A stretch of 44,824 nucleotides of DNA, from positions 1 to 44,824 of the forward strand of contig JAILBR010000062.1 in the NCBI GenBank assembly GCA_024680795.1, written 5' to 3'. Below, piece after piece: positions 41,702 to 43,029 of this stretch. Source of the DNA: Bacilli bacterium (lineage in GTDB: Bacteria; Bacillota_I; Bacilli_A; RFN20; CAG-826). A program made the translations under genes and the position numbers. Position 1 is the stretch's first letter; each line of letters starts with the position of its first letter. A model generated the notes under the pieces. That model searched no databases, had not been told where the DNA came from, and saw nothing but the letters and a program-made list of their open reading frames with translations.

Positions 41702-41741
41702 TTATTACTTTTCTATAAAATTATAATCAACTTAGTTGATT
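41702..41741 (-). promoter_or_regulatory. Promoter/operator upstream of flavin reductase and element copy 2
   Basis: On the minus strand TTGATT, a 17-base spacer and TAATAA (41702-41707) form a candidate promoter. Its -35 box lies in a palindrome (AATCAACT-T-AGTTGATT, 41725-41741) that is also the left end of the repeat element. Confidence 0.45.
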
Positions 41742-41951
41742 AGAAATATAAATATATAAAAAAAATAAAATTTTTTGGTCATAAAATCGAAAAAAATCAC
41801 TATTTGTTTTATGAGAGGAGATATTTTTCTTCTCTAAATCCTGCCTACAGGGTGAGAGCCTTGTAAGTGGGTGGTCTTCGTATGTTTCTCCCACCATTCC
41901 GCAAAGTCTTAAGCAAATAACTGAAAGGTAGGAAGGAAGGGGGTAGATAAG

Positions 41952-42014
41952 ATGGATGAAATATTCCTTATTATCATTTTACTAGTGGTAATCCTTCTAA
42001 TAAAAAAAGGCTAG
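41952..42014 (+). CDS. 20-residue hydrophobic peptide, candidate type I toxin
   Basis: The frame encodes MDEIFLIIILLVVILLIKKG: an acidic start, a 14-residue hydrophobic core (Ile, Leu, Val and one Phe) and a Lys-Lys-Gly end. That is enough for one short membrane helix. AGGAAGGGGG lies eight bases upstream of ATG. The same 20 codons occur in copy 1 with a single-base deletion, so the frame was under coding use. Size and composition resemble type I toxins such as Ibs, Fst or AapA, although I see no clear sequence match. A convergent antisense RNA overlaps its last codons. Synthesis is probably blocked by the leader fold and by the antisense RNA. It could also be a small regulatory membrane peptide. 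Confidence 0.65.
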   Translation: MDEIFLIIILLVVILLIKKG

Positions 42015-42072
42015 TGATTAACAACCACTAACCATAACCCTTTAAAGAAGCGTACATCAGTTATACTCTTCT
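42001..42072 (-). ncRNA. Candidate antisense antitoxin RNA, copy 2
   Basis: On the minus strand TG-A-TATAAT (42080-42085) predicts a start near 42072. The RNA contains GTACGCTTCT and ends at a hairpin (GGTTAGTG with CACTAGCC, one mismatch) followed by seven T's, which are the complement of the Lys-Lys codons. It is fully complementary to the peptide mRNA end and downstream region. Confidence 0.6.
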
Positions 42073-42110
42073 TATATATATTATATCACGAATATTGTAG
42101 AAGAAGAATG

Positions 42111-42149: not shown

Positions 42150-42207
42150 GTTGCGTGGCATCCTAGTAAAAGTTATTATTATAGGGCAGATACATTGTAT
42201 GCTGTAT

Positions 42208-42288
42208 ACCTGATTAGCCGAATTAACGTTTAAGTGATCTATAAGGTCATCGGCATTGGGGAAGCCACGGAAAGGTGGCTTTTTATTT
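42208..42288 (+). promoter_or_regulatory. Folded leader and terminator directly before DUF3800
   Basis: GCCGA (near 42217) pairs with TCGGC (near 42250) around a small hairpin TGATC-TATAA-GGTCA. It is followed by a terminator (AAGCCAC 42262-42268, GTGGCTT 42275-42281, T-run to 42287) one base before ATG 42289. AAAGGTGG, the only ribosome-binding candidate, lies in the 3' arm. This may be an attenuator, or the end of a separate small RNA. Confidence 0.5.
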
Positions 42289-43029
42289 ATGACAATTTAC
42301 ATTTATTCAGATGAATCAGGTACATTCGATTATATTCATAACGAATTCTTTGTTTTTGGTGGGTTAATATGTTTTGATAGACGAAACAAAATTGATATCA
42401 CTAGAAAATATTCGCACGCGGAAAAATCATTAAGAATAAATAAGGAAAAAGGAGACAAAGAACTTAAGGCATCAAACATATCTAATGCAAGCAAAGGCAA
42501 ATTATATCGATGCTTAAATGGGGCGTATAAATTTTGTGTAGTAATCAAGCAAAAAGAAGTAAATAAGAAAGTATATGATAATAAGAAGCATAAACAAAGA
42601 TATCTAGATTACGCCTATAAAATAGTTTTAAAGAAGTGCATGGAGTTACTAATAAAAAGTGAAAAGATAATTCCATATGATGTACGTATCATTTTTGTTA
42701 ACGCTGATGAACATTCGACAGCAACAGATGGGGTTTATGAATTAAGAGAAAATCTCTTAAACGAGTTTAAAAACGGAACCTTCAACTTAACTTGGGATGT
42801 CCATTATAAGCCTATATTTCCAAGATTAAAAATAGTGGATGTCAAGTTTTGTAATTCGTCTACAACTTATTTAATTAGAGCAGCAGATATCATCGCTAAT
42901 CACTGCTATCATAAGGTTCTCTCTAATAATGGAATAATTGAAGAAGAGAGAAACATGTTTGTCTATTATTTGCCGAGCAATTTGATGGGTAGTGGTGGGT
43001 TAGAATACTTTGATAATTATTTGTCCTAA
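42289..43029 (+). CDS. DUF3800 protein
   Basis: The protein has 246 residues. DUF3800 signatures are clear: the N-terminal IYSDESGTFD with conserved acidic residues, FFVFGGLI, and the C-terminal IRAADIIANHCY. The family is predicted to have an RNase H-like fold and is often found in phage, plasmid and defence neighbourhoods; its activity is unknown. ATG 42289 is chosen because an in-frame TTG at 42256 lies in the terminator region. It sits next to the toxin-like element, suggesting a small accessory insertion between the conserved operons. Confidence 0.83.
   Translation: MTIYIYSDESGTFDYIHNEFFVFGGLICFDRRNKIDITRKYSHAEKSLRINKEKGDKELKASNISNASKGKLYRCLNGAYKFCVVIKQKEVNKKVYDNKKHKQRYLDYAYKIVLKKCMELLIKSEKIIPYDVRIIFVNADEHSTATDGVYELRENLLNEFKNGTFNLTWDVHYKPIFPRLKIVDVKFCNSSTTYLIRAADIIANHCYHKVLSNNGIIEEERNMFVYYLPSNLMGSGGLEYFDNYLS

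Follow-up and report, generated by a model that had tools for sequence, protein, structure and literature searches.

The window analysed here is a whole stretch of DNA of 44,824 nucleotides, to which coordinates refer unless a contig or another locus is named. On its plus strand, at 41952-42014, lies an ORF of 20 codons for a hydrophobic peptide, the putative toxin (MDEIFLIIILLVVILLIKKG, then a stop codon); its ATG at 41952 is placed 8 nt past a strong Shine-Dalgarno-like purine tract (AGGAAGGAAGGGGG, plus strand, 41930-41943). ORF and tract are established by sequence and satisfy one criterion for a type I toxin-antitoxin (TA) system, a small (<60 aa) hydrophobic peptide gene with a Shine-Dalgarno (SD) site. 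A 58-bp late-competence-type promoter, TTTTTTGGTCATAAAATCGAAAAAAATCACTATTTGTTTTATGAGAGG, occupies 41761-41818 of the plus strand (model R1 match, E 2.9e-16); the same element stands before recA, dprA, comEA-comEC, radC and a comG-type operon. The ~140-nt leader of the peptide mRNA (41811-41951, plus strand), whose start is inferred from this promoter, has a weak to moderate fold signal: against shuffles it is modestly more stable in copy 1, as this locus is called (z -1.3 to -2.1), and reaches z -2.9 in copy 2. One leader stretch, GTATGTTTCT (41880-41889, plus strand), can pair over 10 bp, G-U included, with the 3'UTR at 42046-42055 (AGAAGCGTAC). This complementarity, found by inspection only, is common to copies 1 and 2 and might reflect a long-distance interaction, for which the evidence is weak (an inference from sequence alone, in two close copies only). 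A terminator scan found no plus-strand terminator for the copy 1 peptide mRNA.

The opposite strand holds a predicted cis-antisense RNA of ~72 nt, the putative antitoxin (42002-42073, minus strand). Its promoter has an extended -10, TGATATAAT (42080-42088, minus strand), with TATAAT at 42085-42080 and TG one base upstream; the equivalents are TATGCTATAAT in copy 2 and TACTATAAT in copy 3. It ends in a minus-strand terminator-like site with a stem of 11 pairs (42033-42009) and a T-run (42008-42002) that faces the AAA AAA Lys codons of the peptide ORF. (Terminator-like sites around copy 1 number two per 900 bp vs 0.4 expected, the second one lying outside the element.) The predicted RNA has a fold of two hairpins (-22 kcal/mol; z -3.7 to -4.0 vs shuffles). 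A further type I criterion, an antisense gene with its own promoter and terminator overlapping the peptide mRNA, is met as a prediction from the sequence, transcription being inferred.

Right behind the antisense promoter of copy 1, at 42179-42292, is a DUF3800-I RNA (RF02969, 80 bits), directly upstream of a DUF3800-type ORF (42256-43029). At locus L175 the same flanking genes appear, by reading, to lack between them the segment that holds the peptide locus and the DUF3800 gene, which therefore looks like a recent insertion or loss. The closest named records of the neighbouring protein are from uncultured Erysipelotrichaceae MAGs (e.g. RUG14851, 93% identity).

A sequence-only reading of this locus had described the 20-residue hydrophobic peptide, the strong SD site, and the minus-strand TATAAT and terminator with T-run opposite the Lys codons; that description is accurate. 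Its failure to recognise the peptide as one of a known family also held: no Pfam or NCBIfam family, known type I toxin profiles included, scored above cut-off for nine small peptides, a null limited by the weakness of protein profiles on 20-mers. It had left a covariance match to a known non-toxin RNA to be looked for, and an Rfam search yielded none over the element, the neighbouring DUF3800-I RNA being the only family matched in the window; weak matches to P26, rli38 and IMES-5 were rejected as far below gathering scores. The long folded leader that it proposed held in part, stability over shuffles at copy 1 being only modest, and its description of the plus-strand terminator as not clear stands to the extent that none was found. 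The same judgement of the plus-strand promoter failed, since the promoter is clear on genome comparison, and the most informative part of the locus, its late-competence promoter control, was missed.

The promoter element and its regulon

The initial ~60 bp of the repeat are found again at ~10 further places in the own genome. Sites were located by search with models, not by full genome scan: model R1 is sequence-only and built from 12 sites, and the wider model R2 from 39. R1 finds 14 strong sites in the own genome (E 2e-17 to 2e-7), preceding genes for RecA, DprA, RadC, ComEA (then a ComEC-type protein), a C39 peptidase and a thioredoxin-like lipoprotein, and also for an ABC protein, RhuM-like proteins and a probable RelB/RelE pair. 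A T2SSE (ComGA-like) ATPase is encoded ~2 kb downstream of a site in the own genome (G000) and in G160, G166, G167, G172, G173, G176 and G177. With R1 and R2 a diverged element is found in 14 of the 19 genomes of the genus. Under a stricter limit the count for the family is 27 of 216 genomes, distributed over 7 genera. The relatives' elements precede the same genes, plus rpsF and a gene for a comFA-like helicase; rpsF usually opens the ssb operon. Gene composition of this kind is that of a Gram-positive late-competence regulon, and the criterion for such a regulon, a promoter common to com machinery and recombination genes, is met. The element and the set of genes that share it are established by sequence; its role as a promoter is an inference, drawn from the constant spacing of 15-20 nt between it and the start codon in most of the genes that it drives directly. 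An SOS regulon is not the favoured reading of the 5' element, because comEA-comEC, dprA, radC and the comG-type operon carry it as well.

Several other observations bear on this regulon. Besides the housekeeping protein, a second protein with a sigma-70 region 2 is encoded in the own genome (L256, G000 C51:15221-15427, in an open frame of 206 aa); it might be the competence sigma factor, with no experimental link. A RelB/DinJ-like and RelE-like pair, possibly a type II TA system within the regulon, lies behind a weaker competence-type promoter (L033, 1501-1950). A 60-aa peptide of the MKYELLSDSEMEQQVSGEALTLTAVMAVLATAIIAVIVYKMFLSDKGNATVPGGWKFSWN type is placed under a competence promoter just before radC (L007 at ~1690-1875, L038, L039, L041, L082); its N-terminus resembles a double-glycine leader and a C39 peptidase belongs to the same regulon, so that it is possibly a competence-linked bacteriocin. 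Competence promoters also drive a multi-copy family of proteins of 100-140 aa with a GGHPA / HPAYIVDEEG-like core (L004, L073, L079, L098, L101, L114, L129, L134, L159, L164), without Pfam match among those tested. Proteins of ~100-140 aa with an NNDFF..GWW motif (L017, L040, L043, L115, L120, L166; no Pfam match for L017 and L040) are encoded by the first gene after a competence promoter, in several genomes upstream of the comGA-like gene. Proteins of the DUF1016/YhcG type, RhuM and ORF6N are repeatedly found behind competence promoters (L045, L070, L116, L142, L014, L015, L130), a possible sign that the regulon includes defence-related or mobile genes.

Copies and related loci

Copy 2 (1653-1984 of the window) has promoter, leader and antisense unit in common with copy 1, in blocks that are 81-96% identical (the leaders, 96% over 70 nt and 88% over 90 nt). 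On the plus strand it comprises a late-competence-type promoter (1660-1716; model R1 match, E 5.9e-14), a leader (1709-1846) and a peptide ORF (1847-1882) that is cut short by a 1-nt deletion (MMDEIILIIFY, then a stop codon). Its predicted antisense RNA, on the minus strand at 1897-1969, has a terminator stem at 1927-1905 and the -10 TATGCTATAAT at 1986-1976. Copy 3 (L003, contig C50) is partial: its leader and promoter are missing, and only the 3' peptide codons, KIFLTIILLVVILLIKKA, and the antisense unit remain; over 17 codons it differs from copy 1 at five synonymous and two nonsynonymous positions. The full peptide frame is kept in one of the three own-genome copies. Decay of the toxin frame with retention of the antisense unit is established by sequence for copies 2 and 3 and for L111, which has lost the toxin body and kept the antisense end; of other decayed loci, L052 is truncated and L059 retains the leader start only. 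Toxin loss with antitoxin retention is the pattern that toxicity would produce; it is suggestive and unquantified, and for single-base frame changes MAG errors cannot be excluded. DNA similarity search of 224 genomes of the family found only the own-genome copies (matches of 26-27 bp at L010 and L011 look like chance), and neither phages and plasmids searched for the element nor viral contigs searched for the leader pattern gave a match.

Search by promoter reaches further. In 11 genomes, from genera g1, g31 and g26, the competence-type promoter drives 27 more small hydrophobic ORFs, all of 20-29 aa except one of 47 (for example, MKEIIVALFEIIIILLIIKKDPPSDKR, METLLILLILCLLVHVIKAPSDRR, MEYSLNFILLLLILIVVKKILSPKD, MVLVAIAAILIITIPVRLLK and MQELVIILVVILLMLEYVKRH). 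In the g26 frames L089, L090 and L095, which have no clear SD of their own, starts were assigned by reading the sequence. Most of these ORFs are faced at the 3' end by a minus-strand terminator, its T-run falling within the final codons or immediately past the stop, and by a minus-strand sigmaA-like promoter, e.g. TTGACA-N17-TATCTT or extended TATAAT. One fixed rule, requiring jointly an antisense terminator at the ORF end and a sigmaA-like promoter downstream, is satisfied by 15 of 27 tested loci (copy 1 included) vs 0.67% of 2700 dinucleotide shuffles of the same regions; 0.82% of 488 ordinary ORF ends of the same genomes satisfy it. The other 12 loci fail, in part because the -10 (TACTTT) or the terminator of some of them is weaker. 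Among the longest invariant blocks past the ORF in subfamily A is the antisense -10 region, AAAAGATAACTG. Compared pairwise within seven subfamilies, the peptide genes have pS > pN in every informative pair (pooled, 0.46 vs 0.19), which indicates purifying selection on the peptide frames. Because loci of one genome or one subfamily are not independent of each other, these figures, like those of the joint test, give direction rather than exact significance. Conservation across species is established in this sense of shared arrangement; the peptide sequences have little in common across genera, so that the family rests on architecture and promoter, not on demonstrated homology.

The leaders are long, at ~140-162 nt in g1 and 63-70 nt in g31. 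The SD of subfamily A lies in a long helix with the leader, and two-sided changes are seen in 7 of 46 pairs over the whole leader. The cost of opening the SD relative to shuffled leaders exceeds z 2 in only 3 of 18 loci (L051, L056, L058) and is negative in several; occlusion of the SD as a family-wide feature was rejected on this count, and leader control is therefore a subfamily feature at best. At L089, L090, L095, L153 and L167 the hydrophobic peptide is overlapped, in a different frame, by an upstream ORF (MRHFKGHL.., MKEAFRIRW..; noted by eye, without statistics); no such ORF is present at copy 1.

The existence of two copies, asserted by the sequence-only reading, thus held, though the peptide of copy 2 is shortened. 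Its proposal of a type I-like layout, with convergent cis-antisense RNA over the 3' end, is supported by recurrence with diverged sequence in related genomes, toxicity and antitoxin action remaining inferences. It had also left conservation of the peptide frame among homologs to be ascertained; frames do recur, with pS > pN.

Comparison with known systems

In type I systems of Gram-positive bacteria, the mRNA of a small membrane peptide is usually overlapped at its 3' end by an antisense RNA that has a promoter of its own (PMC8167048). The txpA/RatA and bsrG/SR4 systems of Bacillus share with the present loci a hydrophobic toxin and a convergent cis-antisense RNA over the 3' end, but their toxins, of 59 and 38 aa, are unrelated in sequence to the present peptides of mostly 20-29 aa, and no report of their competence control was found in the open-access literature searched. 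Fst/par and fst-Sm/srSm likewise combine a small Gram-positive membrane toxin with a convergent antisense RNA. On the other hand, par is defined by shared direct repeats and a bidirectional terminator, whereas the antisense terminator of the present loci lies at the ORF end; that criterion is unmet, with only a minus-strand hairpin at the ORF end and the 10-bp complementarity as sole shared repeat, and no Fst motif was seen in the present peptides. The ~19-aa hydrophobic Ibs toxins of E. coli are close in size and paired with the cis-antisense Sib RNAs, but no sequence relation is apparent, and Sib pairs through target recognition domains, as described in PMC8309996 and generally known, not only at the 3' end; Ibs/Sib is not known to share a promoter with DNA-uptake genes. 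In AapA/IsoA of H. pylori the mRNA of a small peptide is controlled by its own structure, and copies 1 and 2 may be comparable in pairing 5' to 3' over a long distance, but this is a 10-bp match in two close copies only. The upstream overlapping ORFs noted by eye in g26 and g31 loci resemble hok/sok in layout (mok overlaps hok), but here the antisense lies at the 3' end, the peptide is about half the size, sequence is unrelated and the overlap is absent from copy 1.

No type I system tied to competence was found in the open-access literature searched, and the word 'competence' is absent from two reviews of type I systems. A competence-regulated TA system, toxTA of H. influenzae, is of type II (PMC6957337). 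It resembles the present loci as a TA locus under a competence regulator, patchy in distribution and with frequent toxin deletions, and differs in having a protein antitoxin in an operon under CRP/Sxy control instead of a tiny membrane peptide and an antisense RNA, in several copies, in Bacilli.

Readings of the locus

The locus is likely a member of a new family of type I TA-like modules in which the toxin mRNA belongs to the competence regulon; transcription, RNA pairing, toxicity, antitoxin action and purpose are inferred. The label 'type I TA-like' is used because toxicity and repression rest on inference. In growing cells, only the housekeeping minus-strand promoter would be active, yielding an antisense RNA of ~70 nt that covers the 3' end of the peptide gene. 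In competence, the regulator of comEA-comEC, the comG-type operon, dprA, recA and others would also start the peptide mRNA, the ~140-nt leader would slow its translation, and the antisense RNA would anneal to the 3' end of the mRNA, leading to block or degradation. Peptide would be produced only when the mRNA outruns the antisense RNA; the 20 residues would then insert in the membrane, and the competent cell would be slowed, depolarised or killed.

The rival that has most in its favour takes the peptides for non-toxic small membrane proteins of competence (regulators or uptake accessories), silenced outside competence by the antisense RNA. The promoter in common with uptake genes, selection on the peptides, the absence of proof of toxicity, and a weak resemblance of subfamily METGNALVCLILFVIALVALAIIFKR to Flp1-like pilins (below the Pfam cut-off) speak for it. 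Against it, genomes carry several divergent paralogues each, frames have been lost where the antisense unit stayed, and the peptides have the size, the charge and the convergent antisense that are typical of type I toxins (PMC8309996, PMC8167048); it is considered unlikely. Less probable still is that the peptides serve as competence-induced bacteriocins or as pheromones, set free to kill neighbours or to signal to them. The regulon does hold a C39 peptidase protein, a MacB-like ABC protein and, before radC, the 60-aa peptide with its GE/GG-like leader, but the peptides of 20-28 aa have neither a double-glycine leader nor a signal peptide, and a secreted bacteriocin would not normally have an antisense RNA of its own.

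There is even less to recommend the view that what functions is a regulatory RNA, either the structured leader or the antisense RNA, and that the ORF is incidental: the leaders of copies 1 and 2 are nearly identical, and the helices of subfamily A have their two-sided changes (7 of 46 pairs), but SD-bearing frames recur with diverged sequence and pS > pN, and there is no Rfam match. Matches to promoter consensus are common in AT-rich DNA, and a chance arrangement in AT-rich intergenic sequence can be imagined on that basis; recurrence in 12 genomes, the controls of the joint test and peptide selection all but exclude it.

The preferred reading, a competence-linked type I TA-like module, has a bolder extension, toward which the balance of evidence tilts slightly unfavourably: that this uncultured lineage of Bacilli couples DNA uptake to several self-acting membrane toxins under antisense RNAs, so that competence would bring with it a programmed arrest of growth or the altruistic lysis of some of the population. 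Why bacteria keep toxin genes in a competence regulon is an open question, for which the case found in the literature is the one type II system of H. influenzae (PMC6957337), and a recurrent, multi-copy, RNA-controlled counterpart in a different phylum allows it to be tested by comparison. The late-competence promoter defined here for an uncultured group of Bacilli exposes much of its uptake regulon from sequence alone. If the preferred reading is true, these gut-type Bacilli make a possible self-toxin during DNA uptake, and this would explain how competence might lead to a growth pause or to cell death.
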